Origin: a virus | Length of the DNA: 34,669 bases | IMG/VR virus record: IMGVR_UViG_3300045741_000211 | Location: 1-34,669 of that record | Strand: one strand, 5' to 3' | In this document: one piece after another, positions 1,391 to 28,190 of the stretch | Layout of the letters: the number at the start of each line of letters is the position of its first letter | Position numbering within the stretch: the stretch's first letter is position 1 | Notes under the pieces: generated by a model | Seen by the model: the letters and a program-made list of their open reading frames with translations, nothing else | Databases searched by the model: none | Told to the model about the DNA's origin: nothing | Position numbers and translations under genes: made by a program

Positions 1391-2311
1391 CTATACGTTC
1401 CAACTTCCAGGCGGTACATTAGGCCAATCAAAATAGTCTCCAAACTCATCAGCCATATTAATACGCATCGGCCCATTAAATCTGGCAAAGGTGTTCTTAA
1501 CAGCTTGCTCCCAGTCCGCCCTTTCTGTCTGAAAATCTTGCCCTTTAGCCCTCTTATAAGCCCATATCATGCCATCAATCATTAAATCATCATCAAAGAG
1601 ACAGAGGCAATTGTCAGTAAGTTTTGTATTGGAACTGTCTAAAAGAAAAGGCTCTTGCCAGACTGCCCAAGTAACACCACCATCAGTTTGTGAACCAGTA
1701 GTATGACTAGGCCGAGTGCTTCCCGAAGTACCGCCAGCAGTAGTAATATAAGTAAAGCCATTTCCAGAAACTACAGAGTTAGCAGCATAAACAGTTGCAG
1801 CTACCCAGTCCTCTGGCCAAAGCCAATTGCCGGACACATAGCCTAAGAAAAGCTGGTCAGTATCATTTCCACCAGCCGGATCTATCTCAAAATGACCAGC
1901 AGACCTTTGAACATAAGGCGCGGTACTAAAAAGATAGTTAGTAGGCCCAATAAGCCTAAAGGCTTTTCTGGTTTGCAAAGAAACAACAGCAAACTGCCTT
2001 ACATTATAATTATAATCTGAAATAGGCCCACGCAAAGGCCAGTGATTAGTTTGATCCCACTGTCCAGACTCTAAGATTCTATAAAAATCTCCTGGTAGCT
2101 GATAATCTCTTACTCCTGTCTGAGTAGTAAAAGTATATCCCCTCTTAAGCTGTGGCCAGTTGTAAGGTCTATTTCTTAGGTTATCCCCTATAGACCTAAA
2201 GATTGATAAGTATTGCTGTTCGGCAGGAGAATTAACGCCAACAAATGAGCTAGGCGCAGGAAGGTTTATCCTATAGCAGAAACCTTGAATAATCGTTTTA
2301 AGTGTAGCCAT
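1391..2311 (-). CDS. Tail tubular protein A-like head-tail adaptor (gatekeeper)
   Basis: A 306-residue protein. The N-terminal half reads like the T7 gp11/P22 gp4 adaptor group: a short helical start, then a YNWPQL segment (about 50-55) and a DYQLPGDFYRIL segment (69-80), a pattern typical of podovirus tail tubular A proteins. Residues about 172-218 form a Gly/Thr/Ser-rich insert with the spacing V-x-G-x-x-Y ... GGTSGSTRP ... DGGVTW, which recurs in phage tail proteins as a small beta domain, often thought to bind carbohydrate. The C-terminus is helical (DGMIWAYKRAKGQDF). The gene sits between a beta-rich structural gene and the Pro-rich ejection candidate. The role as a ring between portal and tail nozzle is inferred from family resemblance and gene order. 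Confidence 0.7.
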   Translation of the reverse strand: MATLKTIIQGFCYRINLPAPSSFVGVNSPAEQQYLSIFRSIGDNLRNRPYNWPQLKRGYTFTTQTGVRDYQLPGDFYRILESGQWDQTNHWPLRGPISDYNYNVRQFAVVSLQTRKAFRLIGPTNYLFSTAPYVQRSAGHFEIDPAGGNDTDQLFLGYVSGNWLWPEDWVAATVYAANSVVSGNGFTYITTAGGTSGSTRPSHTTGSQTDGGVTWAVWQEPFLLDSSNTKLTDNCLCLFDDDLMIDGMIWAYKRAKGQDFQTERADWEQAVKNTFARFNGPMRINMADEFGDYFDWPNVPPGSWNV

Positions 2312-2320
2312 TTCATTTTA

Positions 2321-3124
2321 CTAATATGGAAAGCCATCTTTAAACAACATAATCGTAGCATGTGCCCTAACTGGAGTATTAGAGCTAGGCGCAGCTTCAC
2401 AAAAACCTCTAAGGTCTATTGTTTCTTTAGAAGCTACTGGCAGCATTAGGTTGGTTCTATCAATATGACCGCCACCAGAAGTATTGGCTGTTGGAGAATT
2501 AATAATCCCAGCGCCCCAGCCTACATTAGTCACACCAGCACTATTAGTATTCATAATATAAAAGTGCATAGAGCCAGCAGTAGCACCAGCAATTCTGTAA
2601 TAAGAGATCCATAAGTCGGTAACGACTCCAATCATGCCAGCAGGAACGGTATAGAGAAAATCAAAGTCCTGACCTACCGCCTGAGCTACTGAAGGAATAG
2701 ATTTATAAACGGTTGAACCAGTGACGGTTCTTATATCAATATTGCCAGCGTTCTTTAATCCAGAACCAGCAGTAAGAACCTTTGCTGAGTTAATTCTAAA
2801 GACACTAGAGTTTACTAATGGAACTGGCGTTACACCGTTAAGAGTTACTGTTTCTGTAAACTCATTCCAACTAGCATCAAGCCCCTTAACTTGTATGGTT
2901 CTAGCACCAGTACCAGCAGCCGCATTATTAGCACTAGAAGAAAGAACTTCAAAAGCTCCTGCTGTAGTTATATAAGCAGAAATAGTACCAACCCTAGAGA
3001 TAACAGCATCAGAACTGCCTATCGCTGGATTCATTCCCCTAATAAAATCTACTCTAATCGGCCTTTGTCCAGTAACACTGGCCAATCTTTCTCTACCTGC
3101 TGGGACTAAACTTGTAAAACTCAT
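2321..3124 (-). CDS. Virion structural protein, beta-rich (possible decoration or tail protein)
   Basis: A 267-residue protein rich in Ser, Thr, Ala, Gly and Val, with alternating hydrophobic residues throughout, as in beta-sandwich virion proteins. No signal peptide, membrane segment or catalytic motif is visible. The C-terminal third contains the pattern VPAGMIGVVTDLWISYYRI followed by a long Gly/Ala/Asn stretch and ends in HATIMLFKDGFPY, reminiscent of small receptor-binding or decoration beta domains. It starts 3 nt before the stop of the upstream small gene and is followed 9 nt later by the adaptor gene, so it is part of the late operon. A specific function cannot be assigned. Confidence 0.65.
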   Translation of the reverse strand: MSFTSLVPAGRERLASVTGQRPIRVDFIRGMNPAIGSSDAVISRVGTISAYITTAGAFEVLSSSANNAAAGTGARTIQVKGLDASWNEFTETVTLNGVTPVPLVNSSVFRINSAKVLTAGSGLKNAGNIDIRTVTGSTVYKSIPSVAQAVGQDFDFLYTVPAGMIGVVTDLWISYYRIAGATAGSMHFYIMNTNSAGVTNVGWGAGIINSPTANTSGGGHIDRTNLMLPVASKETIDLRGFCEAAPSSNTPVRAHATIMLFKDGFPY

Positions 3125-3274: not shown

Positions 3275-3526
3275 TTAAACCAACTCGTCCTTAGCCAGGT
3301 CTTGATAATGACTCTGAGCCGCCTCAACCATCTCTGTTTCGATTTCTTTTTTATTTTTATTCTCCATCAGAAACTTTTCATACAACGGAGCATAGTCTTT
3401 AATGTGTCTAGCTTCTGCTTTACCATCAAAGACAAAAGGAACGGCAATTACATCTGCAATAGAAGGCTTTTCAAAATGAAAGAAGGTCAATCCTTCTTGT
3501 TCATAAAAATAAGCCTTGTATTTCAT
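3275..3526 (-). CDS. Hypothetical 83-residue protein
   Basis: Starts with ATG at 3526, overlapping the stop of the lipoprotein gene by 4 nt. The N-terminal half has beta-like spacing (MKYKAYFYEQEGLTFFHFEK) and the C-terminal half is an acidic helix (NKKEIETEMVEAAQSHYQDLA). There is no signal peptide or membrane segment. The tight overlaps on both sides show it is translated as part of the late operon. Function not recognised. Confidence 0.6.
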   Translation of the reverse strand: MKYKAYFYEQEGLTFFHFEKPSIADVIAVPFVFDGKAEARHIKDYAPLYEKFLMENKNKKEIETEMVEAAQSHYQDLAKDELV

Positions 3527-3708
3527 TTTTTAGCCGATTCTTTCTTGGGCTGTAATGTGTTTAACGCTTGAGCTAATGCAACGATATTATCATCACGACT
3601 CTTTAGCGCATCAGCCAATTCCTGCTTACTTACTCCGGCAGGAAAGGGCTGAAAACTAGCAGAACAACCCGATAAAATTAGTGCCAAAACAATCAATGTC
3701 TTTTTCAT
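3523..3708 (-). CDS. Small predicted lipoprotein
   Basis: A 61-residue protein with a textbook lipoprotein signal: two lysines, a hydrophobic stretch, then the lipobox LSGC with Cys at residue 15 (MKKTLIVLALILSGC). The mature part would be about 46 residues with a short amphipathic helix (SKQELADALKSRDDNIVALAQALN) and a basic tail. A good Shine-Dalgarno site (AAGGAG) precedes the ATG. In phages, small lipoproteins serve as outer-membrane spanins (normally beside endolysin genes) or as superinfection-exclusion proteins that mask receptors. Here it lies directly after an exported tail-like protein, far from the lysis genes, so exclusion or a partner role with that protein is more likely than a spanin role. 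That is inference. Confidence 0.75.
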   Translation of the reverse strand: MKKTLIVLALILSGCSASFQPFPAGVSKQELADALKSRDDNIVALAQALNTLQPKKESAKK

Positions 3709-3733
3709 ATACTCACTCCTTGAGGTTTATTAA

Positions 3734-5107
3734 TTAGTTCGTTATTAGCATAGCCCAGTTATAAACTGAGGTTTCGCCAGCTACAGAACATTTAACGCTA
3801 AAGCTTGTAGCTGCTGATATGGCTGACACATAAGGAGAGCCAATAGCTGCAGTACCCGAAATAGTCTGAGGCGAAAACGCTAACACCATATTGGTAGCTG
3901 CTGCTGTAGTGCTTACAACAACTGCTGTAACACCGTTACAGGTAAACTGTCCTGAAGTAGCTGCTGCACCACCACCCTTTACCGTAATTTTAGAGCCAGC
4001 TACAGGCTGAAGAATACCACCCTGAAAAGTAGCATTTTTAGCTTGATCTAATTTTAGTACAGATGACGGAGTAGAAGATCCATCCTGAGAGGTTAGAAAG
4101 TCTAAAGCGCCAGGCATATCATTGGAAGCACCAGGAGTTGCATCTATGGTAGCTTTAATCTGAGCAGCAGTGTCAAAAGTAGCTCCATTAGCACCCTTAA
4201 AAGAAATAAGTCCTACAGTATCTCCACTAGCAACAATCGTATCTGCTGTTCCATCAGTTGCTCTGGACTTAAGTAGGTTAAGCAATACGCCGTTTGTATC
4301 TGCTGTTCCCTGCGCCCAGGCTTGCTGAACAGTTGTGCCTGAACTTGTCAGTGTGTATTGCTGTGGCGTTCCCGCATCACCAGCAATAGAGGAAGCACCA
4401 AGAAGTAGCGCACTGTTAGCATTTTGAGAACGGCCTAGAACAAGATTGCCACCATTGGAACCATCTTGAAGGAAATTACCATTACTGTTTATAGTCCAGC
4501 GAGTGGCTGGGGTAGCACTTCCATCAGCAGAAGTTAAAAACGATAGCTTTCCAGGCATATCATTGGAAGCACCAGGAGTATTGTCTATGGTTGCAAAAAT
4601 CTGGGCAGCTTTGTCAAATGTAGCTCCGTTAGCTCCATAAAAATCTATAGAACCTACGTTATCACCAGAAGCTACAATCGTATCAGCCGATCCGTCTACT
4701 GCTCTACTTTTTAGGAACGTCATTACAGCAGCAGTAGTATCAGCAGAGCCTCTAGCTATAGACAAAGGAATACCAGCCGCAGAAAACGAATAAGCCTCAG
4801 TAGCGCCTACCGTAGTTACGTCTGCTGGCATAGCTGTTCTACCAAGAATAGCCGCATTAGAAGTAGCTGAATTTATCAAGCTAGTTCCTAGGTAGAGCGT
4901 CCTAAATTGCTTAGAGGCACTGCCAAGGTCTATAGCATTATTGCTAGAAGGAAGTAGCGTAGTTGGTAAACTACCCACAACCTTAGAGCAAATAGCCGTT
5001 GCCTGAAAAGCATTAAACATAGGCATTAGGCTAGTTGCACAAGTATCCGCCAAGGCGTTAGTAGCAAAAAGACCAAGCCCTAAAAGTACACTAAGAACTT
5101 TTTTCAT
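3734..5107 (-). CDS. Exported tail-fibre/adhesin-like protein with a duplicated domain
   Basis: A 457-residue protein that begins with a classical Sec signal peptide: KK, then a Leu/Gly-rich core, then a likely cut after NALA (about residue 20). The mature protein is Ala/Ser/Thr/Gly-rich. It carries a domain of about 100 residues twice, at about 118-215 and 265-360, 147 residues apart. Each copy reads LKSRA..G.ADTIVASGD.VG...F.GANGATFD.AAQI.ATID.TPGASNDMPG.L.FLTS.DGS.TP, a pattern seen in phage tail-spike and fibre regions. DNA for the core is identical over 29 bases between 4110-4138 and 4551-4579. The C-terminal part has few Cys and a beta-like pattern. A signal peptide on a tail-like virion-operon gene is unusual. 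It could be a cell-surface or secreted adhesin, a receptor mask, or a tail fibre that passes the membrane. Confidence 0.75.
   Translation of the reverse strand: MKKVLSVLLGLGLFATNALADTCATSLMPMFNAFQATAICSKVVGSLPTTLLPSSNNAIDLGSASKQFRTLYLGTSLINSATSNAAILGRTAMPADVTTVGATEAYSFSAAGIPLSIARGSADTTAAVMTFLKSRAVDGSADTIVASGDNVGSIDFYGANGATFDKAAQIFATIDNTPGASNDMPGKLSFLTSADGSATPATRWTINSNGNFLQDGSNGGNLVLGRSQNANSALLLGASSIAGDAGTPQQYTLTSSGTTVQQAWAQGTADTNGVLLNLLKSRATDGTADTIVASGDTVGLISFKGANGATFDTAAQIKATIDATPGASNDMPGALDFLTSQDGSSTPSSVLKLDQAKNATFQGGILQPVAGSKITVKGGGAAATSGQFTCNGVTAVVVSTTAAATNMVLAFSPQTISGTAAIGSPYVSAISAATSFSVKCSVAGETSVYNWAMLITN
4110..4579. repeat. Direct repeat, 29 bases, two copies 441 nt apart
   Basis: The same 29 bases occur at 4110-4138 and 4551-4579, inside the exported tail-like gene. 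The spacing of 441 nt is a multiple of three, so it marks an in-frame duplication of a 147-residue module. Flanking sequence is also similar but has drifted, mostly at third codon positions. Confidence 0.9.
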
Positions 5108-5839
5108 TTATTCACCTGTATTAACAGTCGAGGTATCCTCAATCTTACGAGGCCTACCCCTTTTTGGTTTATCTTCTAAATTTATTTGCTGGCCCCTACT
5201 ATCTAAAAGCATACCCTTCATCTCACCAATCTGCTTTTGCATTTCAGCAATAACAGCTTGAGATTTTTCTAGCTCAGACTTTAATAGGTTTACTCGGCCA
5301 TCACTCTTACCGCGATTCTCAGCATCTACCTTAGCTCTAGCAAATTCTCTTAGCTCAAAGCCATTAGCTATCTGCTGTGCCAATATATCAGAACAGTCGG
5401 CGAGTTGTTCCAGTGTATGACACCCATAGTACCGAAGCTCGGTTGCTATGTGTGGAGATACAAAGGAACACTCGTCGAGGTTTATCCCCATTGGGGCAGT
5501 TTTCCCATCCCTAAACGCTTTGTAAGCAGCCCAGTGTTCTCTTTTATGATAATCACAAGCCACATCATCTATCTCATTCTTATCACCAGGAGTAATAATA
5601 TTAACCATCTCTCTTTCTACTTCTCTGGTGCCTGTTTTCTTTACAACAGAAGTGCCAGTAGCAGGGTTAATATCAACCTCAGTAGCGTAAACTTCCACAA
5701 AAGTTTTCTTGTAGAATCTTACAAACTGACGGGCAGAGCCTTTTAGCCTTTGTCCATCCTGAAGTGAATCGAGATCAAATCCTTGAAGCGTAGGCGCATC
5801 CCATGAAGGAAGCACTTTATTTAGGGGAGAAAAATCCAT
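5108..5839 (-). CDS. Coiled-coil protein with C-terminal AT-hook-like motif
   Basis: A 243-residue protein. The first 160 residues are globular with a Cys/His-containing segment (DDVACDYHKREHW, about 91-103; Cys 124, 140 and 149). Residues 165-212 form a helical region with coiled-coil spacing (LLKSELEKSQAVIAEMQKQIGEMKGMLL). The C-terminus holds KPKRGRPRK (224-232), whose GRP core flanked by basic residues matches the AT-hook minor-groove binding motif. An SD site (AAGGAACAG) precedes the ATG. It sits between the capsid accessory gene and the exported tail-like gene, so it may be a virion protein that contacts packaged DNA. Family not recognised. Confidence 0.65.
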   Translation of the reverse strand: MDFSPLNKVLPSWDAPTLQGFDLDSLQDGQRLKGSARQFVRFYKKTFVEVYATEVDINPATGTSVVKKTGTREVEREMVNIITPGDKNEIDDVACDYHKREHWAAYKAFRDGKTAPMGINLDECSFVSPHIATELRYYGCHTLEQLADCSDILAQQIANGFELREFARAKVDAENRGKSDGRVNLLKSELEKSQAVIAEMQKQIGEMKGMLLDSRGQQINLEDKPKRGRPRKIEDTSTVNTGE

Positions 5840-5860: not shown

Positions 5861-6358
5861 TTAGCTATTATTTACAGACAGCTTTCTAGTAGCAGTAACG
5901 CCATAGGCAGTACCAGCAGTAGTAGCTGTAGCAGAAAAGACTAGGCCAGGTATAAGTACAGCACTTGCCGCAGTCTGGTCACTTATACGACCAGCAGTTG
6001 CATGACTGTATAGCTTAACACTAGCAGCAGAGGGCGAGTTACCGTTATTTACGAGAAACTCAGTAACACCGTCCTCTCTTAGTACAAACGGCCCAACAGC
6101 TACCCAACCATATTCAGCATCAGCAAACGCAAACTGCGCTATGCCAATACATTGTGGGTTTGTTGAGGTTGCTAATGTGGTAGTTAATGAGCTAGCAAGA
6201 CAAGTCTTATTAGTAATTACTACCGCATCATACTGAGCAATAGCACCAGATGCCTTTACATACATCCAAGTAGCGCCATTCACCTCGAATAATTCGCCTA
6301 GCTGGCCGTTGGAAGTTAGTCCATCGGAAGCTGTTAAATTTACAAATCCAGTTCTCAT
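5861..6358 (-). CDS. Capsid decoration/cement-like protein
   Basis: A 165-residue protein directly downstream of the major capsid gene, 18 nt after its stop. Composition is Ala/Thr/Val/Gly-rich with beta spacing and no signal peptide. The sequence GELFEVNGATWMYVKASGAIAQYDAVV is typical of small capsid-associated beta proteins that follow the coat gene in many phages. No catalytic residues are apparent. The decoration role is inferred from position and composition. Confidence 0.55.
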   Translation of the reverse strand: MRTGFVNLTASDGLTSNGQLGELFEVNGATWMYVKASGAIAQYDAVVITNKTCLASSLTTTLATSTNPQCIGIAQFAFADAEYGWVAVGPFVLREDGVTEFLVNNGNSPSAASVKLYSHATAGRISDQTAASAVLIPGLVFSATATTAGTAYGVTATRKLSVNNS

Positions 6359-6376: not shown

Positions 6377-7354
6377 TTAAGAATCCAACATTACAAAGCT
6401 AAGGCCAGCGCCGTTGCATGTAAATTGTCCGATTCCAACAGTGATAGAAATATCAACCAACTGATTGACACTCACTCTTTCTGGTACTGGCTGGAAGTTG
6501 TAGTTTTTGTACATCTTCAAAGCAAAGTTATCCAAGCGGATACCATAGCAACGATCAACAGCAATACGGCTTAGTCCAGAAAAGACCTTTCCGTTAGCAT
6601 TAACCATCGTCATACCTTCGATAACTACGTTATCAAAGTTAGCTTCAATCATGTCCATATTCTGCGTAAATCTCTGTTTAGCAGACATGGCATCACAAGC
6701 CGCAGTGAAATAAGTAGAACCAGCTAGACAAAGCTCTGGGCCACCATTTCTTAATACTTGGTTTTTTGCATAACGCAGTCTGGACTCAATGTTGCTTGAA
6801 TCAGTTGCGCCAGTAAAAGTAGAAGGAGCGTTGATTGATGTATTACGGATAGAGGTAAAAGAAGCTCTGGCAAGACCACCATAAGAGCCGCTTGTTACTG
6901 TATCTGCAATATAAGATTTAATACCAGCAAAAGATTTTCCACCAAAGCCAGTACCGTCACCTTGCAAATCCTGCTCAACTGCGTTCATCAACGAATCCTC
7001 AGCAGTTACATTTCTCTGCTCAAGTAGGTCAAGAAACTTAGCATCACCATCATTCTGTGCTTTCTCAAGCGCATTGATGACGACAGGAACAACGATAATT
7101 TTAGGAGAATACTCAAAACCAGTAATAGTTTGATTGTACCCTAGTGTGATTTCCTCTGTAGGATCGATACGCTGCACATAGGAGTTTTGAGAATATCTAA
7201 TATCTTCCCAAATAACACGTCCACCGTTAATAGTCTTAACGTTGCCTTTCTTCTTAAGCATGTAAAGCAACGGAATATTATCTGAGACAGCATCAGAGGG
7301 TTTCTTTTCCCTATTTTCCCATGTGACAGCTTGGATTTCTGATAAACCAGCCAT
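6377..7354 (-). CDS. Major capsid protein
   Basis: A 325-residue protein. The N-terminus (MAGLSEIQAVTWENREKKP, DNIPLLYMLKKKGNVKTINGG, then RVIWEDIRYSQNS) resembles coat proteins of a widespread phage group that begin with an SEI.AVT.ENR..K..D sequence, followed by L...LK.KG....F.GGR.I.E. The middle has an oligomer-forming segment with conserved Asp/Glu (LEQRNVTAEDSLMNAVEQDLQGDGTG), and the C-terminus is beta-rich. An HK97-like coat fold is assumed from length and neighbours. It lies 47 nt after the scaffold stop, behind a hairpin that may protect its message, and is followed by a decoration-like gene. The family match is from memory of sequence patterns and was not tested. Confidence 0.8.
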   Translation of the reverse strand: MAGLSEIQAVTWENREKKPSDAVSDNIPLLYMLKKKGNVKTINGGRVIWEDIRYSQNSYVQRIDPTEEITLGYNQTITGFEYSPKIIVVPVVINALEKAQNDGDAKFLDLLEQRNVTAEDSLMNAVEQDLQGDGTGFGGKSFAGIKSYIADTVTSGSYGGLARASFTSIRNTSINAPSTFTGATDSSNIESRLRYAKNQVLRNGGPELCLAGSTYFTAACDAMSAKQRFTQNMDMIEANFDNVVIEGMTMVNANGKVFSGLSRIAVDRCYGIRLDNFALKMYKNYNFQPVPERVSVNQLVDISITVGIGQFTCNGAGLSFVMLDS

Positions 7355-7407: not shown

Positions 7408-8505
7408 TGAATTTAATTCAGCAAGTGCAGCTTCTGCTGCTTCTCGATAGGTTTTAAATTTCTTACCTGTCGAGGTACTTGCTACATTAGCTCCGCGCCC
7501 AGGTTTGGATGCGGCAGCACGAATAGACTTAATAATATGTGATTGCGTATTATCTTGAGTCCTAGTCGGTTCAGATTCGTCAACCCTACCGCCCAACCAT
7601 CTGTAACCTTCTTCGATTACTTTCTGGTGTGAGGCATCGGGGATACGAGCCTTTATATAACCAAGAAACGCCACTGAATCAGGGTGTTTCCCAGTCACTA
7701 GGGAACCAATGGAACTGGAGAGCTTAATGCCTGACTCAGTAGTATTAACGTCAGGGAACTTAGGAACACCAGCCGCATTTTTCTCTTGCTCAAAAGTAGT
7801 CCAGGCTTGGGCAAACGGTTGTGCCGCCCTCACTTGATCTTCTTGAGCTAATCTAGCTTTTATGGAATTTAGTTCAGTTTGTAAAGGAATTATTTTCTCA
7901 TCATAGATAACACTCTTACCGCCTGATTCTATTGCGGAAAGTAATTCCTTCGGAACCTCTTTTCCCTTAGCTCTTAGATACGCAGCAGCATTAACTAGCG
8001 GATCCCCAGTGTCTAACTCATTAACTGCTTTAAGCGCCTTGATGATTTCTTTGGGTACATTACCTGACTCCCCACGCTTATTAGTCTTAAGAAATGGCTC
8101 TACCTCTCTAGCAATATCCTTAGCCCACTGAAGCTCTGCCGCTTCTCTCTTAATTTCTTCAAGCTTAGATTGCCTCTTAGCGTGAAGCTTTAGAGCAGCT
8201 CTTTGTTGTTCAGGGGAAGATTGAGAAAAGAGTTCCTTATCTTCCCTATCCCATTCTGCTGGCGGATCCAACGGTTTGTCATTTCCTCTGTTTCCTCCAC
8301 TCTTTCCAGTTGTAGCTGGAGCTTCTGGTTCTTTAGCTGGTTCTTCGGGGGCAACTTCTTTCTTAGTTTCTTCACTTGGTTCCTCCTTAGTTCCCTCAAC
8401 GGCTACCTCTAAGGCATCTCTTAGCGAGAGTCCCTTAGTAGTATCTTCGATGAGATCAGCTTGGGTAACAGGTTCGGTTTCTACTTCCTTTTCTTTCTTT
8501 GCCAT
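7402..8505 (-). CDS. Capsid scaffolding protein
   Basis: A 367-residue, very acidic and Lys-rich protein. The N-terminal 100 residues are low-complexity (Glu, Pro, Ala, Lys). A charged helical region follows (about 95-230) with coiled-coil character, including KLEEIKREAAELQWAKDIA, then a region with alternating helices (QTELNSIKARLAQEDQVRAA). The C-terminus is basic and Ala-rich (KKFKTYREAAEAALAEL), as expected for a coat-binding end. Position directly upstream of the major capsid gene, composition and length all match phage scaffolds. No protease domain is visible. Confidence 0.75.
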   Translation of the reverse strand: MAKKEKEVETEPVTQADLIEDTTKGLSLRDALEVAVEGTKEEPSEETKKEVAPEEPAKEPEAPATTGKSGGNRGNDKPLDPPAEWDREDKELFSQSSPEQQRAALKLHAKRQSKLEEIKREAAELQWAKDIAREVEPFLKTNKRGESGNVPKEIIKALKAVNELDTGDPLVNAAAYLRAKGKEVPKELLSAIESGGKSVIYDEKIIPLQTELNSIKARLAQEDQVRAAQPFAQAWTTFEQEKNAAGVPKFPDVNTTESGIKLSSSIGSLVTGKHPDSVAFLGYIKARIPDASHQKVIEEGYRWLGGRVDESEPTRTQDNTQSHIIKSIRAAASKPGRGANVASTSTGKKFKTYREAAEAALAELNSD

Positions 8506-8508
8506 GTT

Positions 8509-9042
8509 TTATTTCCTTTTAAAACGCTTTCCTCTTGGATTGTTTTTCCTTCCTACGACATTAAAAGCATCAAAGTTTAATGCCTTAGAAACTATTTCAT
8601 TTTGACGCTCACACAATGCTCTTGTTTCTTCTGATAGTGGTGCTGTGCCAGCATCTACCTGAGCTACTGCTTTTCTTAGCGCCTTATGATGATCCTCTTT
8701 TATTTCCTTAATACGCTTCTTTTCTACGCTTCTATCCCCAGGAATCATCTGGTCAGTAGTAATAGTACCACAAGCCTTATCTGCTTCTGCTAATGCAGAA
8801 CGACTATCAATGGTCTTGCATACCCCAGGATGATAGTAAGGTGTTATAGAGTCTTGGATAAAATAAGGTGCCACCCCAAAGTTATTAGTCTTTCTCGGCG
8901 GATAACCTTCTTTAAAAGACTGGCTCTCAGAGTCCCAGTAATAAACACCAGCCTTCCTTGTTCCAAACTTCGGAGGCCAGTCTGATTCTTTCTCATCACC
9001 ATACTCAAATATTCTAGTTTGAATTTTCTGCTCCTTGCTCAC
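8509..9042 (-). CDS. Hypothetical virion-operon protein
   Basis: A 177-residue protein, start overlapping the stop of the collar-repeat gene by 4 nt. The N-terminal half is aromatic-rich (KAGVYYWDSESQSFKEGYPP), followed by a region with PYFIQDSITPYYHPG. The C-terminal half is a charged helix (VEKKRIKEIKEDHHKALRKA) ending in a basic tail (GRKNNPRGKRFKRK). Proteins of this kind, with an aromatic N-terminal motif and basic C-terminus, often precede scaffold genes in podovirus clusters, but I cannot assign a function. Confidence 0.6.
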   Translation of the reverse strand: MSKEQKIQTRIFEYGDEKESDWPPKFGTRKAGVYYWDSESQSFKEGYPPRKTNNFGVAPYFIQDSITPYYHPGVCKTIDSRSALAEADKACGTITTDQMIPGDRSVEKKRIKEIKEDHHKALRKAVAQVDAGTAPLSEETRALCERQNEIVSKALNFDAFNVVGRKNNPRGKRFKRK

Positions 9043-10427
9043 AATTCCAACTCCATTAAAAGTAAAAGAAAGGCTTCTTCATCCTGAAGATCCATGTGTC
9101 TTTTAATCATTAATTCTTCTATTTCCTTCCTAGTAAGTTTTCGTTTGGGCTTAGTAGTAGGCTTTATAACATGTAAACTGTCTGGCCTAGTTTGTAATTT
9201 TAAATAGGCTGCCCTATCAAATTTGATAAAAATTACTCGCTTGTACTGCGGATAATGCGCCTCTGAGGCCGAGGTATCAATTGAGACAGAAGCAGCAAAG
9301 TTTCCAATAACCGTAGTGCCATCATCAGTCCAAGTATGAGTATGAGTAGCCGGACTAATATTAAATCCAACACCAGTTATGCCAATATTAAGAGTAGAGG
9401 TTGCACCTGTCCAACTATGAAAATGTGAGTTTTGAATCGGCAAACAATCATCAGCCGTATGAGTATGAGTTAATGAGCCGCCAGTAGATACATTTGATTC
9501 CCCATCTGCATTAGCCCCCTTATGGAACTTGCCATCCATAGACGTATAACGCGCCCATGCTTTTGGAATACCAGCATTAGTTCCGCCCCATAATGCTATT
9601 ATCTTATCAGGTAAGTCTCCGCCTGTTTTCCCATTACTAATAACATTTAACTTCTTATAAACTGGCTCTGCCGTTGTAGTACTAATTGTTGTAGTTACAC
9701 TTTGGTTCGTTGCTGTATTGGCGTTACCAGTAAGCGCATGAGTATGCGCCCCCTTTGCTACAGTAGAACCAGCTACACTTTTTCTAGATACGCCTAAGTC
9801 AATCGGCCCAGAGTTACCAGTATGTGAGTGTGCTTGTTGAGTATGAGTATGTGCTGGCGAAGTATGATTATGAGAAGTAGAGCCACCAGTAGCGCCACCA
9901 TCTCCGGCAGCAGCAGCGCCCTTAAGATAAGTATTACCTACAACCCTAGTCCAACTAGCAGGTAAAGTATCACTCTCAAAAAACGAATAAGCATTAAAAG
10001 GAATTGATGTAGGACTGCCAGCACTCTTTATGAAAATAACTTTCTTATAAGTTAAATCATTAGTAGCAGCATCAACCGTTATCGCTACTGGGTCATTAGT
10101 TCCTGTAGTGCCATCATCAGTAGGCGTAGGATGCAAGTGAGTAGAGGGGCTATCCTGAACGGCAGGCGTACCACTACCTGCAACCAAAGAAGAACCGTCA
10201 TTACCGCCATCTGTTAAATTGTGAACGTGAAAATCTTGTAGCGGAGTATGATTTGGAGAAGTATGGGTATGGGAAGCATTACCACGGACAGTAGTTAAAT
10301 CAGCATCGGCAGCAGCGGCTGCGCCCTGAATATAAAAACCATCTAATGAAGTTTCTCTAGTCCAACCAGCAGGGATAGATGCGTTAGTAGACGGCCAGCA
10401 AACTATTATGCCTCTAGCTATCGCCAC
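9039..10427 (-). CDS. Tail-collar-like protein with three His-rich repeats
   Basis: A 462-residue protein with a GTG start at 10427, preceded by AGGA at good spacing and overlapping the upstream gene by 14 nt. It contains three copies of a domain of about 130 residues. Each begins with a P-A-x-W-x-R segment (IPAGWTRETSLDGFYIQGA, LPASWTRVVGNTYLKGA, IPKAWARYTSMDGKFHKGA), then a His cluster (SHTHTSPNHT, SHNHTSPAHTHTQQAHSH, LTHTHTADD), and ends with a YKK/YKRVIFIK strand. This matches phage tail-collar/short-fibre modules, where HxH residues bind metal in trimers (T4 gp12). The last 60 residues are a charged helix. It may be a neck fibre or appendage, since it lies between portal and scaffold and not among tail genes. 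Confidence 0.75.
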   Translation of the reverse strand: MAIARGIIVCWPSTNASIPAGWTRETSLDGFYIQGAAAAADADLTTVRGNASHTHTSPNHTPLQDFHVHNLTDGGNDGSSLVAGSGTPAVQDSPSTHLHPTPTDDGTTGTNDPVAITVDAATNDLTYKKVIFIKSAGSPTSIPFNAYSFFESDTLPASWTRVVGNTYLKGAAAAGDGGATGGSTSHNHTSPAHTHTQQAHSHTGNSGPIDLGVSRKSVAGSTVAKGAHTHALTGNANTATNQSVTTTISTTTAEPVYKKLNVISNGKTGGDLPDKIIALWGGTNAGIPKAWARYTSMDGKFHKGANADGESNVSTGGSLTHTHTADDCLPIQNSHFHSWTGATSTLNIGITGVGFNISPATHTHTWTDDGTTVIGNFAASVSIDTSASEAHYPQYKRVIFIKFDRAAYLKLQTRPDSLHVIKPTTKPKRKLTRKEIEELMIKRHMDLQDEEAFLLLLMELEL

Positions 10428-20396: not shown

Positions 20397-20494
20397 AATA
20401 TTTTGTAATAATCTTACTAAGTTTTAGCTTTGCTTTTGCAGTGCTGCATCAAAGAATAGAGCAGCAGATAAGTTTAGCAGCAGGTAGAAAATGA
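20393..20494 (+). CDS. Tiny exported or membrane peptide, 33 residues
   Basis: GTG start at 20393 directly behind a strong AGGAGG site. The sequence is a hydrophobic N-terminal helix (KYFVIILLSFSFAFAVLHQR) and a polar tail. It overlaps the previous stop and, by ATGA, the following hydrolase-like gene at 20491. It may be a membrane anchor, a toxin-like peptide, or an inner-membrane partner of the next protein. The strong SD, tight overlaps and hydrophobic start argue against chance. Confidence 0.5.
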   Translation: MKYFVIILLSFSFAFAVLHQRIEQQISLAAGRK

Positions 20495-21648
20495 GCTTTA
20501 AAGCTATGCTATCTTATGGGCCGTATACCTACCCTGATTACATTCAGAGTCAAAGCACATTTAACAACGTGCAAAACAGTCCCATAGATGGCTTTACTAT
20601 GGATTTAAGAACAAATTCTGGGCAGCCCTTTAGCACTAGTGTTTGGAATACAACGGTAATAACACTTGATGATCTATCTAACTCTATAGCTCAATTACAA
20701 GATAGAAAACTACAGAACGAAAGTTATCTTTTGCACAAAGAAAATAATTGGGCATCAGCATCTACTTTTTTAGGTTATGGAAAGTGCCAATATAATTTCT
20801 GTAAGCTTCAAATCTCTGGCGTTATTATAGATCCGTTCAGTGCTGATTTTGAGAAAGTCTATAATAAGCTAGTGGTGTTGGCTCAGTTTGCAGCAGCAGT
20901 AGGTTTCTATGGAATCTGGTTTGATGTGGAGCCGTATGTTGAAATTTGGAAATATAATAATTTACCGCTAAGAAGCAAGTATACCTTTGCACAATATCAA
21001 CAAAGATATTACGAAATAGGTTATGGAATAGCTCTACAGTGGAGAAAAGCTAATCCCAACTTAAGCGTAATGACTACCTCTGCCTATGATGGCTTTGCTG
21101 GGCAAGGTTTACCCTATGAGGCTAATCAATACGGTTTATATAAAAACTTTCTTGATGGTCTATTTGATGGCTGGGGAGATTTTTATTATCGGCTTGGTGT
21201 TCGCGGTACTGGAAAAATTATAGTTACTACTGAGGGTACTTTCTCCCTAACTAATCTTCCTAACATTATTCGCTATGGCTATCGTCAGATGTCTGGTCAG
21301 TACGATAGTTATATAAATCCAGGAAACCCGCCGACTGTGTTGGGTACTCCACCGCCAGACCAAACTTATTGGGGCGGTAGTTCTTACTTTTTCGATACAA
21401 ATATAAAAGAGATAGGTTTGGCCATTTGGCCCACTGCCCCATTTTATAATCCTTTGGGGCTACCTGAAGATAACCAGTGGGCACCAGATACATTTAGAGA
21501 TGCACTAAAAACCATGATTGATTACTGCCAATGGATCTGGATTTATAATCCAGATTGGAGTTTTTACAACGGATCATCTGGTGATTTAGATCCTGTTTAT
21601 ATAGCAGCTATTGAGGAAGCTAGAGTTTATGGAAAACTGCCGGAATAA
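20491..21648 (+). CDS. TIM-barrel-like putative glycoside hydrolase
   Basis: A 385-residue protein with no signal peptide of its own. The pattern of strands each followed by polar loops (AMLSYGPYTYP, PIDGFTMDLRTN, VGFYGIWFDVEPYVEIW, LSVMTTSAYDGFAG, GKIIVTTEGTF, IGLAIWPTA) recalls a beta-alpha barrel. Acidic residues at the strand ends (FDVEPY, TTEGTF) could be catalytic. It is rich in Tyr, Trp and Asn, as carbohydrate-active enzymes often are. It is the longest protein apart from the phosphoesterase in the early operon and follows a tiny hydrophobic peptide. Host-wall or capsule-modifying activity is a guess. It differs from phage lysozymes and amidases known to me. Confidence 0.4.
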   Translation: MSFKAMLSYGPYTYPDYIQSQSTFNNVQNSPIDGFTMDLRTNSGQPFSTSVWNTTVITLDDLSNSIAQLQDRKLQNESYLLHKENNWASASTFLGYGKCQYNFCKLQISGVIIDPFSADFEKVYNKLVVLAQFAAAVGFYGIWFDVEPYVEIWKYNNLPLRSKYTFAQYQQRYYEIGYGIALQWRKANPNLSVMTTSAYDGFAGQGLPYEANQYGLYKNFLDGLFDGWGDFYYRLGVRGTGKIIVTTEGTFSLTNLPNIIRYGYRQMSGQYDSYINPGNPPTVLGTPPPDQTYWGGSSYFFDTNIKEIGLAIWPTAPFYNPLGLPEDNQWAPDTFRDALKTMIDYCQWIWIYNPDWSFYNGSSGDLDPVYIAAIEEARVYGKLPE

Positions 21649-23616: not shown

Positions 23617-23768
23617 GTAAAAAGCAAAAAAAATCAAAACGCAAAAATCCGGCTGATAATTTTAATGCCGATAATCCTTTAATAAAACTTCTCAAAAAGT
23701 ATGGTGTTATTCAATTTGGATCTGGTGGTCGAACTATTAAGCGTAGACTTAAATTTAAAAATGGTTAA
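23613..23768 (+). CDS. Small, very basic 51-residue protein
   Basis: ATG at 23613, overlapping the previous stop, ending inside the protease start (ATGGTTAA overlap of 8 nt). The N-terminus is a Lys/Ser cluster (MSKKQKKSKRKNPADNF) and the C-terminus is also basic (GRTIKRRLKFKNG). It could bind nucleic acid or be exported with the protease. Family unknown. Confidence 0.5.
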   Translation: MSKKQKKSKRKNPADNFNADNPLIKLLKKYGVIQFGSGGRTIKRRLKFKNG

Positions 23769-24327
23769 GAGTCTTATCTTTATCGTCTTTATCCTTGCTC
23801 GTGGCCCAGACTCGCTTAATCGTAATCAGATGGTAAATGTAGTTAGTAACGTAAGGCGACTATACCGGACTGTAGGTATAAAAATTATACCAGTTCGATA
23901 CATAGTAGCTAGGCGTGACCCAACTGCGTTTTTAGATAGTGCCTTATATGGCGCATTAGAGCGTAGAAGGTTCTGGGAGTTTTATTTAAGAAAGCATTAT
24001 CTAAAAGACAGCAGGGCACATAGGCATGTAGTATTACCGCCAGTACATTTTAATAAGGAGCTTTGGTATTATGGAGCAGCTACGGTTTGCAGTTATCGCA
24101 ACTATAATCCTTCTGTGGGTATTAGCAGCGCTACTATCAGTGACACTGCTCCAAGCACCACCGCTATAAAGTCTATGATTCCTATAGCTCACGAGATAGG
24201 ACACGCTATTGGGGCTAGTCATGACGATACTAATCACAATATTATGAACTCTGGCGCAGGGCAGTTTTGGGCTGAGCCGTTAGGGTTTAATGAGAACGCT
24301 TTAAGAGAGTTTGAGGAATGTTTATAA
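23761..24327 (+). CDS. Exported metzincin-type zinc metalloprotease
   Basis: I choose ATG at 23761 (188 residues) because it overlaps the preceding stop (ATGGTTAA) and gives a proper signal-like start (MVKSLIFIVFILARG). Upstream in-frame Met at 23701 lies in the preceding gene. The zinc motif HExxHxxGxxH is complete: HEIGHAIGASH (144-154), followed by a Met-turn candidate NHNIMNS (Met 162). This combination is diagnostic of the metzincin clan, and the H-x-D after the third His resembles matrixins and related small archaeal/bacterial proteases. The first 100 residues form a fold typical of a metzincin upper domain. No propeptide with a Cys switch is visible. Exported, it could act on periplasmic or cell-surface proteins. 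Confidence in the catalytic call is high, the target is unknown. Confidence 0.85.
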   Translation: MVKSLIFIVFILARGPDSLNRNQMVNVVSNVRRLYRTVGIKIIPVRYIVARRDPTAFLDSALYGALERRRFWEFYLRKHYLKDSRAHRHVVLPPVHFNKELWYYGAATVCSYRNYNPSVGISSATISDTAPSTTAIKSMIPIAHEIGHAIGASHDDTNHNIMNSGAGQFWAEPLGFNENALREFEECL

Positions 24328-24481: not shown

Positions 24482-26257
24482 ATGCCAAACGCCAAAAGGT
24501 TCCAGCAACTCAGCCGAAATGTTTTTAAGATAACTATCCCTATAGTAGTCCGTAAGGATTGGGAGTCCTGGGTACTACTCACCTCAGACCAGCACTGGGA
24601 CAATCCTAAATCAAACCATAAGTTACAGCTAAAACATTTAGAGGAAGCAAAAGAGAGAGATGCTTCAATAATTTCTGCTGGAGATTTTTTCTGTGCTATG
24701 CAGGGGAAATATGACAGAAGGGCTAATAAGACAGCATTAAGGCCAGAGCATAGGTCTGATGACTACTTTGATTCTCTAATAGAGACAGCATCAAACTTCT
24801 TTGCCCCCTATGCTCATAATTTCTTTTTAATTGGTATGGGCAATCATGAAGCTTCTATCGTTGATAGGCATGAGACTAATTTAATAGAAAGATTAGTAGC
24901 GGTACTAAATAACAAAACCAAATCTAAAATTTTCTCCGGTGGTTTTTCTGGCTGGATAATTTTTACCTTTATGCGACATGACAATAAGCAGTGCGGCAGT
25001 ATCGTACTGCACTATGATCATGGCTATGGCGGAGGTGGCCCTGTGACGGCAGACATGATTCAGCATCAGCGAAGGTCTGTTTATCTTCCTGATGCTGACA
25101 TCATTCTTAGTGGGCACTGTTTTTCTGAAGATACCGAGATTCTTACGCCAGAGGGTTGGAAGTTTCATCAAGAGATTACTGAGCATAGCTGTGTAGCTAC
25201 GATGAATAAAACTAATAAAACACTGGAATGGCAGCAAGTTAATAGCATTTTTAAATATGACCATTTCAAAGAGATGCATAGTTTTGAGAACAGCAAAGTT
25301 AATTTACTTGTTACATCTGAACATGGAATGATTTTTGAAAAATATAGGGATAAAGAATTAGTAGAACTTCCCGCAAAAGATACTAATAAGATACCAGAAT
25401 TATGTTGGTTGCATGGAGCTTTGGATACAATCCCAGATTTTAATATCTGTGATGATACCCTTAGATTACTTACCTGGATTGTGGCTGATGGTTGTATAGA
25501 AGATGGCGGTATAAGATTCCATTTTTCTAAACAAAGAAAAATAAATAAAATTAAAAAACTTTGTGCCTCCTTAGACATTCCCTTTACTAGTCATGTCCAA
25601 AATACAGGTAATACAAAAATTAGAATTGGCGTAGCCTACGCAACTTCCTTTATTGACCTACTAGAGGGTGTAAAGGAGCTTCCTACCAGTTTCATTAAAA
25701 ACCTAAGCGGCAGACAGGCCCAGATAGTTTTGGAGGAATATCGTTTAAGTGATGGGCAGTTTGAGAATAGTGTTATTAGCTGGCAGCTTTATAGTTTTAA
25801 TAAACAAAATATAAATGTTCTACAAGCTTTAGCAGTAAAGGCGGGTTTTCGTGGTCTGTGCTCTAATGAAACTATTTTAAATATTTGTCCCAAGCATACT
25901 TCATTTGAAGCAAGAATAGAATCTAGGGTAGTGCCCTATTCTGGTATCGCTTGGTGTGTGAGTGTTCCCAATGGAACATTAATAGTACGGCGAAAAGGAA
26001 AGGCTGTCATAACACAGAACACACATGATAGTTGGATGAGAGAAATTGCTAGGATTAGGCTCACACAGCATGGGGGCTTAAAACAGGATGTCCAGACACA
26101 TTTAAAGCTACCTAGCTATAAAGATGACTATGTAGATGGGCATGGGGGCTGGGCTGTTACTAAGGGCTTTCCTCCCAAACCTCTTGGTGCATACTGGCTT
26201 AAATTTTCGTATGATGTAAAAGAGTCTAGGGTAGTTTATCAGATAGTGAAGGCATGA
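24482..26257 (+). CDS. Calcineurin-like metallophosphoesterase interrupted by an intein
   Basis: A 591-residue precursor. The host protein (290 residues after splicing) has the five metallophosphoesterase motifs: DQH (36-38), GDFF (67-70), GNHE (120-123), LHYDH (176-180), and a final GH-x-H. The last motif is split: G211-H212 ends the N-extein and T514-H515 begins the C-extein, giving GHTH after splicing. Residues 213-513 are an intein. Substrate could be DNA, nucleotide or phosphoprotein. It follows the tRNA and lies near the end of the early operon. Without splicing the last metal-binding His is displaced by 301 residues, so activity should depend on splicing. Confidence 0.88.
   Translation: MPNAKRFQQLSRNVFKITIPIVVRKDWESWVLLTSDQHWDNPKSNHKLQLKHLEEAKERDASIISAGDFFCAMQGKYDRRANKTALRPEHRSDDYFDSLIETASNFFAPYAHNFFLIGMGNHEASIVDRHETNLIERLVAVLNNKTKSKIFSGGFSGWIIFTFMRHDNKQCGSIVLHYDHGYGGGGPVTADMIQHQRRSVYLPDADIILSGHCFSEDTEILTPEGWKFHQEITEHSCVATMNKTNKTLEWQQVNSIFKYDHFKEMHSFENSKVNLLVTSEHGMIFEKYRDKELVELPAKDTNKIPELCWLHGALDTIPDFNICDDTLRLLTWIVADGCIEDGGIRFHFSKQRKINKIKKLCASLDIPFTSHVQNTGNTKIRIGVAYATSFIDLLEGVKELPTSFIKNLSGRQAQIVLEEYRLSDGQFENSVISWQLYSFNKQNINVLQALAVKAGFRGLCSNETILNICPKHTSFEARIESRVVPYSGIAWCVSVPNGTLIVRRKGKAVITQNTHDSWMREIARIRLTQHGGLKQDVQTHLKLPSYKDDYVDGHGGWAVTKGFPPKPLGAYWLKFSYDVKESRVVYQIVKA
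25118..26020 (+). mobile_element. Intein with LAGLIDADG homing endonuclease in GHTH motif
   Basis: 301 codons (precursor residues 213-513). Block A starts with Cys213 (CFSEDTEILTPEGW). Block B is VTSEHGM with Thr278 and His281. The endonuclease has two LAGLIDADG-type motifs: LLTWIVADG (329-337) and VLEEYRLSDG (415-424). Block F is YSGIAWCVSVPNG, and block G is KAVITQN before Thr514. The penultimate residue is Gln where most inteins have His, and the +1 nucleophile is Thr. DNA borders are 25118 and 26020. Confidence 0.9.
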
Positions 26258-26794: not shown

Positions 26795-27826
26795 TTACCC
26801 CTGAAAAAAGCCTGTACGAAAAACAGGATGTACAGGCCCATACAGCTTATTATTTGCTTTAAAAACAACCCAGGGAGAACCTGAGAGCGCCTTGGCTTTA
26901 TCAGCTATCTGAAAGCCGTACATCTTTAGGCCATTTGGCGTACCGCTATAGTAGCGCCACATGCCCCCTAGAAAACTACCATAAAGCGGAAAACTACCAA
27001 CAAGTTGTTTATCATGTGTCAAAATATCGACATGGTTAGCCCGCTCAGGGATAATTAAACAAGGCTTATTTGCCCTGCTATCCACGCCATTGTCCTCGCT
27101 ATGCGTCTTATATAGAGAGGGCTTGGTTAGTACTAGGCTGGGGGCAAAAAAAGCTGGTGGTGGGCCTTTAGGCTCGAATAAACGTAGTACGCTTATAATG
27201 TAGTTGGCGGAAGGGGGGTTTTTCCTGTCTGGTGGTGGGGTAGCGTTACCAGCAGTAGAGAGGTTAAACCTAGCACCCCAGCCAAAGACTATATCAGCAA
27301 ACTTGTTCTTATTTATCCAAGCTTCTGCGTCAATATCAAACAAGGATTGACCGTCAGTAGAAGCTATCTGGCCAAGTCCAGCAGTAGCGTTTTTGCCATG
27401 TTCCTCCGTCATAACCCCAGGTATAGCAGGACTACCCATAGGAGCCTGAACCGGAATACAGCTAGGACAAAGCTGCTTAACTAAATCAACTCTCTTTTGT
27501 ACATTGGTTACTGATGATTCACTGTATTCACAGGAGTGAGAAACATAGACTTTTACGTTTGGAAACTGTTTAGCCAGCCCCTCCCAGCGAGGAAGCTTTT
27601 TATTTAGAAAGTCCAAAGGAACAATCTTATGCCCATAGTCCCACCAGATATGACCACGCACAGCAGCAACCTTGCCAGAATTTATAAGAGTAATTAGGTG
27701 TGGCATGACATCACCAAAGGTGTTATCAAAGCAACCTATGGCTGTACCAGCAGGAAAAGAATTAAGAGTCTCGTTTACGTTCCAAGACTTATTGCCCAAG
27801 CCTAAAAGGTCTAGTCCGACTAACAT
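26795..27826 (-). CDS. Putative endolysin or glycoside-hydrolase-like protein of unknown family
   Basis: A 343-residue protein with a good SD (GAGG) ahead of ATG 27826. Strand-like segments followed by polar residues (VAAVRGHIWWDYGH, VKVYVSHSCEYSESS, GQSLFDIDAEAWIN, FADIVFGWGARFN) look like a beta-alpha barrel. The last 120 residues look like a beta domain (VFKANNKLYGPVHPV). There is no signal peptide. It sits directly before the holin-like gene, the usual place of an endolysin, but no known lysozyme, amidase or endopeptidase motif is seen. Residues HIWWDYGH and DIDAEAW could be catalytic. Alternative: a tail-associated or surface-directed hydrolase. Confidence 0.45.
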   Translation of the reverse strand: MLVGLDLLGLGNKSWNVNETLNSFPAGTAIGCFDNTFGDVMPHLITLINSGKVAAVRGHIWWDYGHKIVPLDFLNKKLPRWEGLAKQFPNVKVYVSHSCEYSESSVTNVQKRVDLVKQLCPSCIPVQAPMGSPAIPGVMTEEHGKNATAGLGQIASTDGQSLFDIDAEAWINKNKFADIVFGWGARFNLSTAGNATPPPDRKNPPSANYIISVLRLFEPKGPPPAFFAPSLVLTKPSLYKTHSEDNGVDSRANKPCLIIPERANHVDILTHDKQLVGSFPLYGSFLGGMWRYYSGTPNGLKMYGFQIADKAKALSGSPWVVFKANNKLYGPVHPVFRTGFFQG

Positions 27827-27850
27827 AGAACCTCATTAAAATAAAAATGG

Positions 27851-27920
27851 TGCGGCTTTTGCTTATCAAATACCATGCAACCTGATAAAACCAAGAGAGA
27901 GAGAAAGAGCAAAAGCCGCA
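27851..27920 (-). promoter_or_regulatory. Long inverted repeat before the lysis cassette
   Basis: TGCGGCTTTTGCT (27851-27863) and AGCAAAAGCCGCA (27908-27920) pair perfectly over 13 bp. An inner 6-bp pair TTATCA (27863-27868) with TGATAA (27883-27888) may extend it. It lies in the gap between the coiled-coil gene and the endolysin candidate, starting 3 nt after that stop. On the minus strand an AT-rich ATTTTTATTTT follows. It may be a terminator or an attenuator limiting lysis gene expression. Confidence 0.6.
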
Positions 27921-27923
27921 TTA

Positions 27924-28190
27924 TCACCTTCTGCTCTTTCCTTCTAAAAGTCTATCAAGTTTATACTCTATAGATCCTAATCGACGATCCATCTCAACCC
28001 ACCTTATAGTTGATTCAGATTCCAGCTTTGTAAATCTAGTCAGATTTTCTGTGGTTACATTCTCTTGTTGAGAAACTCTATTCTCTATCCCATCAATCCA
28101 GTGCTTAACACTAAATGTAAAGTAAGATGAGAGGATGCCCAACGCTAATAGCGCAGCACTAAATAAATTTATAGAACCTCTGAGTGTCAT
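27924..28190 (-). CDS. Membrane-anchored coiled-coil protein (spanin/XhlA-like)
   Basis: An 88-residue protein: one membrane helix near the N-terminus (about 8-26, NLFSAALLALGILSSYFTF), then a soluble helix with coiled-coil-like spacing (ENRVSQQENVTTENLTRFTKLES, MDRRLGSIEYKLDRLLEG). This is the layout of inner-membrane spanins and of XhlA-type lysis-accessory proteins. It is followed by the endolysin candidate and holin-like genes. No overlapping outer-membrane spanin lipoprotein gene was found here. The role in lysis is inferred from layout and position. Confidence 0.55.
   Translation of the reverse strand: MTLRGSINLFSAALLALGILSSYFTFSVKHWIDGIENRVSQQENVTTENLTRFTKLESESTIRWVEMDRRLGSIEYKLDRLLEGKSRR

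Follow-up and report, generated by a model that had tools for sequence, protein, structure and literature searches.

Predicted Sec-exported fibre-like proteins between the capsid and tail adaptor genes of a clade of uncultured podophages

The stretch of DNA analysed here (the window) is the whole of the viral record IMGVR_UViG_3300045741_000211, 34,669 nt in length. It reads as a complete circular map, the open reading frame split at position 1 stopping 8 bases past the junction and overlapping the closure gene. The phage belongs to a clade of uncultured phages of the short-tailed type (podophages), whose members are metagenome contigs. The virion genes of the window relevant to this report are as follows.

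9039-10427 (-): 462-aa collar-like tail protein without signal peptide, in the portal-scaffold slot (phrog_5795)
6377-7354 (-): major capsid protein, Mx8 type (phrog_9953)
5861-6358 (-): 165-aa decoration-like gene, located where Mx8-type phages have their second major virion protein
5108-5839 (-): 243-aa conserved virion-operon gene, immediately upstream of the exported slot
3734-5107 (-): 457-aa predicted exported fibre-like protein, with signal peptide, DxC...C module, two fibre repeats, and K1-lyase_C-type C-terminal domain
3523-3708 (-): 61-aa predicted lipoprotein, with lipobox LSG-C15 and then a short charged tail
3275-3526 (-): 83-aa gene without signal peptide, within the capsid-adaptor interval
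2321-3124 (-): 267-aa protein without signal peptide, at the end of the slot (phrog_8198)
1391-2311 (-): 306-aa tail adaptor closing the slot (phrog_6013, tail protein)

The capsid-to-adaptor interval of the window holds the 165-aa gene, the 243-aa gene, two genes with export signals, two small genes, and the 267-aa protein. The ATG of the 457-aa gene abuts the stop codon of the 243-aa gene, and promoter- or terminator-like sites did not exceed the shuffle expectation in a consensus scan, so the exported pair looks like part of the virion operon; nothing in the sequence marks it as an independent unit. Since the proteins of phage particles are as a rule assembled inside the cytoplasm, secreted fibre- or spike-like proteins in a particle-building operon are unusual.

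The 457-aa protein begins with a predicted Sec signal peptide (MKKVLSVLLGLGLFATNALA followed by DTC; residues 1-20, site between A20 and D21, score 5.2 with a home-made heuristic), and the DxC...C module occupies residues 21-44. Two stretches match PHROG tail-fibre families (phrog_18345, E 2e-30; phrog_9942, E 8e-27), which bears out the duplicated fibre-like modules described in the original prediction, made by a model from the letters of this DNA; by eye, the repeats were placed at about residues 117-216 and 262-357. The C-terminal domain (residues 383-453) is of the K1-lyase_C type (PF24146, E 3.5e-6, above the Pfam cut-off). AF2 modelled the protein poorly (mean pLDDT 46), and only its C-terminus was interpreted because the rest is mostly of low confidence; the modelled C-terminus resembles the tips of the K64-1 depolymerase, the Pam1 tailspike, the R2 pyocin fibre, and the K1 lyase, with weak E-values. 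The protein has the recognised fibre and spike domains of tail fibres and tailspikes, and departs from the cytoplasmic make-up of that class, free of export signals, in its predicted Sec signal and paired cysteines. A search of viral contigs with back-translated peptides found no close relative.

The adjacent 61-aa protein carries a lipobox (MKKTLIVLALILSG followed by C; LSG-C15 by the heuristic caller) with Ser at +2, which is compatible with outer-membrane sorting. Its match to the Cor family (phrog_1119, E 0.009) is confined to the signal peptide (residues 1-22), its mature part shows no similarity to Cor in a PHROG search, and the second cysteine for an Llp-like disulphide is absent. The lipoprotein is optional, being absent from most clade relatives that retain the exported DxC protein, and lipoproteins of outer-membrane type, 59-82 aa long, adjoin a fibre gene in at least four clade lineages. 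A role as o-spanin was rejected, as there is no adjacent inner-membrane spanin gene; a membrane-anchored 88-aa spanin candidate lies at 27924-28190, with a small lipoprotein of its own at 27820-27927.

This second lipoprotein (27820-27927, -) is a tiny protein of 33-35 aa (LSGC), located between the 88-aa membrane-anchored, coiled-coil-like protein and a conserved 343-aa protein, and looks like an o-spanin or lysis-lipoprotein gene. The 343-aa protein (26795-27826, -) is conserved in the clade, has no Pfam or PHROG match, and has signal peptides in the G003 and G004 relatives and none in the window copy. Also in the window are a 385-aa protein among early-type genes (20491-21648, +) with no Pfam or PHROG match, and a 591-aa metallophosphoesterase-like protein (24482-26257, +) with no Pfam match at E 0.01, in which, by eye only, a GH-T-H motif is interrupted by an intein-like stretch that begins CFSEDTEILTPEGW and ends VITQN ahead of THDSW. 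A reprolysin-like zinc metalloprotease is encoded at 23701-24327 (+; PF13688, E 1.6e-7); its relative in L136 (7122-7838) clearly starts with a Sec signal peptide, so protease secretion is a further possibility in the clade. The same contig encodes an exported, fibronectin-type-III-like protein of 117 aa (8439-8792, +) beside a short protein with a signal-like start.

Signal peptides and lipoboxes were called with a home-made heuristic, which also recovers PhoA, OmpA, Bla, Lpp, MBP, DsbA, TolB, and Rz1. It returned no positives among 604 unique core virion proteins, 11 among 1309 ORFs (60 aa or longer) from outside the clade, and a rate of 7% on composition-preserving N-terminal shuffles; a few further signals missed by the caller were recognised by eye (552-aa protein of L113; 184-aa protein of L119-L122). 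The two adjacent genes with export signals that the original prediction had reported were recovered as ORFs with both signals called, and the oddity of exported genes inside a virion operon, also pointed out there, extends to the whole clade.

The clade was collected through the capsid and a degenerate DNA pattern of the DxC motif. Nearest among the relatives found first is L002 (capsid 79% identical), whose protein at this place is 300 aa long; it retains the C-terminal domain, a signal peptide, and the motif D-T-C-x3-L-x3-F-x3-Q-A-x3-C, and differs in the middle. Over 2.9 million viral contigs the D-T-C pattern matched six, with a signal peptide preceding it in each, and a pattern also permitting D-A-C gave more clade members and one chance match; outside the clade, these scans returned two chance matches only (L103 and L125), neither with a signal peptide. 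The clade capsid alignment led to 22 loci. At clade loci with a complete capsid-to-adaptor interval, to which the count is limited, there are one to four exported genes per interval, a D[TAS]C...C protein being among them in each. Mx8-type phages (Myxococcus Mx8 and Mx9, Stenotrophomonas BUCT555, and Bradyrhizobium ppBjS10J-1) have a homologous capsid with about 28-32% identity and share the gene order capsid, 243-aa gene, adaptor, closure, but no exported gene was called between capsid and adaptor in the roughly 60 more distant relatives examined; BUCT555 has annotated holin and endolysin genes at the place of the exported slot. Searches of GTDB genomes with two alignments found no host or prophage of the clade, and the collections searched held no cultured relative.

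The bodies of the exported proteins are phage adhesin modules, namely fibre repeats, an S74 chaperone domain, and a gp9/gp10/tailspike fold. L011 has an exported fibre of 448 aa and L014 one of 306 aa with an S74 chaperone domain (PF13884, E 2e-12); an exported 552-aa protein has a weak CBM96 match, and small 123-aa proteins and decoration-like domains occur in single phages. The 152-aa DxC protein was modelled with a mean pLDDT of 80. Structural matches to its body (residues 52-152) include a Solidus phage tailspike domain (Z 10.2), CBA120 TSP4 (Z 9.6), T4 gp10 and gp9 (both with Z about 8), and the capsid spike of a phage (Z 7.1); its modelled N-terminus consists of two short helices carrying both conserved cysteines. 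A PDB sequence search with both family alignments gave no credible match, and a PHROG scan of the 152-aa family gave none. Profiles (PF24146, PF13884, PHROG tail fibre) as well as fold comparison (Z 8-10) show these modules to be like those of known fibres and spikes (T4 gp9/gp10, CBA120 TSP4, K1 lyase), but here they carry predicted Sec signal peptides and cysteine pairs; to our knowledge, the known fibres of the gp9/gp10, K1-lyase_C, and S74 types are made and assembled in the cytoplasm.

Cysteine is 2.8-fold as frequent in mature exported proteins as in core virion proteins of the same phages (p 2e-9). An even number is present in 24 of 27 mature exported proteins vs 44 of 98 controls, many of these proteins being related and not independent, and three longer exported proteins have odd counts, so the even number is not strict. 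Three alternative cysteine pairs occur in the C-terminal domain, each gained or lost as a pair. The 152-aa body has non-exported homologues in other phages of the same capsid type (L054, L055, L060, and L067), one of which occupies the same slot (L060), and these have no signal peptide, DxC module, or C-terminal cysteine pair. Relatives without the signal peptide, which the original prediction had named as evidence against itself, exist only as these distant homologues of one body domain; clade orthologues all retain it. In most pairs compared, the signal peptides (identity 15-65%) are more diverged than the mature protein, and the A-x-A sites before D or Q are conserved. Because of the paired cysteines, and because the non-exported homologues have neither signal peptide nor cysteine pairs, export of the slot proteins looks real. 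Sequence-level evidence covers the predicted signal peptides, the conserved slot, the paired cysteines, and the adhesin-like folds, and we infer cleavage, disulphides, and periplasmic residence.

Between portal and scaffold, fibre or decoration genes without export signals are present in most clade members, and in the window the 462-aa gene at this place is the other clearly fibre-like gene of the genome. This slot is empty in G005/L017 and L098/L105, where the portal is followed directly by the 177-aa gene and then the scaffold, so in at least these two lineages no fibre candidate other than the exported proteins is recognisable. Large proteins of the portal-scaffold slot carry signal peptides in G004 and G007. 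Two exported proteins were observed in this slot in L121 (4438-7133) and G004 (33276-35347), where sister phages have non-exported fibres. No sequence common to the exported bodies and the non-exported fibres of the same phages was detected.

Our preferred explanation, held tentatively, is that the exported proteins are adhesins maturing in the periplasm and attaching to virions upon lysis, and we favour it over superinfection exclusion because the fibre slot is empty in some lineages and portal-scaffold proteins themselves carry signal peptides in G004 and G007. As part of it we favour regarding the slot that runs from the capsid block to the tail adaptor as a clade-specific cassette of adhesins with predicted Sec export. 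The proteins would be translated together with the virion genes, cross the inner membrane, lose the signal peptide between A and D, and fold in the periplasm with disulphides. Lysis would then bring them together with particles from the cytoplasm, and docking would follow, perhaps via the short helical D-x-C...C module at the start of the mature protein; fibres anchored in the virion are usually laid out in this way, with one N-terminal module common to interchangeable bodies. Once docked they may serve as receptor-binding proteins or as capsid or tail appendages, with tips swapped between phages, and the small lipoprotein, where present, may help or tether long fibres at the outer membrane. 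The weakest elements are post-lysis docking on virions and the part assigned to the lipoprotein. Against this explanation, the window also has a non-exported fibre-like gene (9039-10427), receptor binding could be carried out by other conserved non-exported proteins, and the partner of the DxC module could just as well be a component of the envelope.

Superinfection exclusion or receptor masking is an unlikely account of the slot as a whole. Here the exported proteins and the lipoprotein would, in the manner of T5 Llp or Rtp45, work within the infected cell's envelope, where they would obstruct the receptor or a later stage of entry and keep progeny phages from binding to debris. Both Llp and Rtp45 are receptor-binding lipoproteins, small in size and periplasmic (PMC9586334, PMC12685063). 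Exported products with an outer-membrane-type lipoprotein beside a fibre gene do resemble T5 llp beside pb5, and Llp (T5), Cor (T1), and Rtp45 (Rtp) are likewise small phage lipoproteins beside a fibre or receptor-binding gene with a residue other than Asp at +2; exclusion is possible above all for the lipoprotein. However, unlike these systems, the window lipoprotein resembles Cor at the level of the signal peptide only, has no second cysteine for an Llp-like disulphide, is not conserved across the clade, and is accompanied by exported fibre modules, which are large, swapped adhesin bodies. The original prediction had proposed a two-protein surface-display pair for exclusion or cell adhesion; that proposal is not supported, as one partner is absent from most relatives that keep the DxC protein, the Cor match is limited to a signal peptide, and a Sec signal alone leads to the Gram-negative periplasm and not to the cell surface. 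A receptor-mimicking decoy would be expected to share sequence with the phage's non-exported fibres, and the exported bodies share none that is detectable.

It is improbable that the proteins are free adhesins, released unattached at lysis and binding envelope debris, capsule, or neighbouring cells, or aggregating cells. The carbohydrate-binding-like tips (K1-lyase_C and the weak CBM96) and soluble export with no recognised membrane anchor are consistent with this, but unattached receptor-binding domains would also block the phage's own progeny, and one N-terminal module on differing bodies suggests docking to a common partner.

A signal-like N-terminus that is not used for export, serving as an uncut hydrophobic peg for a cytoplasmic virion protein or as a membrane anchor in assembly, would suit the virion-operon location and virion-type domains, but is very unlikely: cleavage sites are conserved in signal peptides that have mostly diverged further than the mature proteins, unrelated bodies each have their own signal, lipoboxes lie next door, and paired cysteines are absent from non-exported homologues, so that a Sec signal and an oxidising compartment appear to fit the data better. 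Lysogenic-conversion morons that modify the host with no particle role, like lambda Lom/Bor and further exported phage products whose genes lie among or close to those of the tail, are just as hard to credit, since the slot genes, exported and variable in number and content as they are, have start and stop codons that abut, no promoter or terminator beyond the level of shuffled sequence in the consensus scan, fibre and spike modules, and a presence in every complete clade interval.

We know of no tailed phage in which a fibre is secreted first, nor of a two-compartment assembly route in tailed phages, and the literature searched, with most subscription papers outside its coverage, contained no precedent for tailed-phage fibres with signal peptides. 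That a tailed-phage lineage routes its receptor-binding fibres through the host Sec system and disulphide folding in the periplasm, mounting them on particles only when the compartments mix at lysis, is a conceivable though doubtful extension of the preferred explanation. If the exported proteins are virion parts, tailed phages do not in every case assemble exclusively in the cytoplasm, and secretion and oxidative folding of adhesins would be a design option for phages; if they are not, they would form a large family of secreted phage adhesins that act on the infected cell or on debris.
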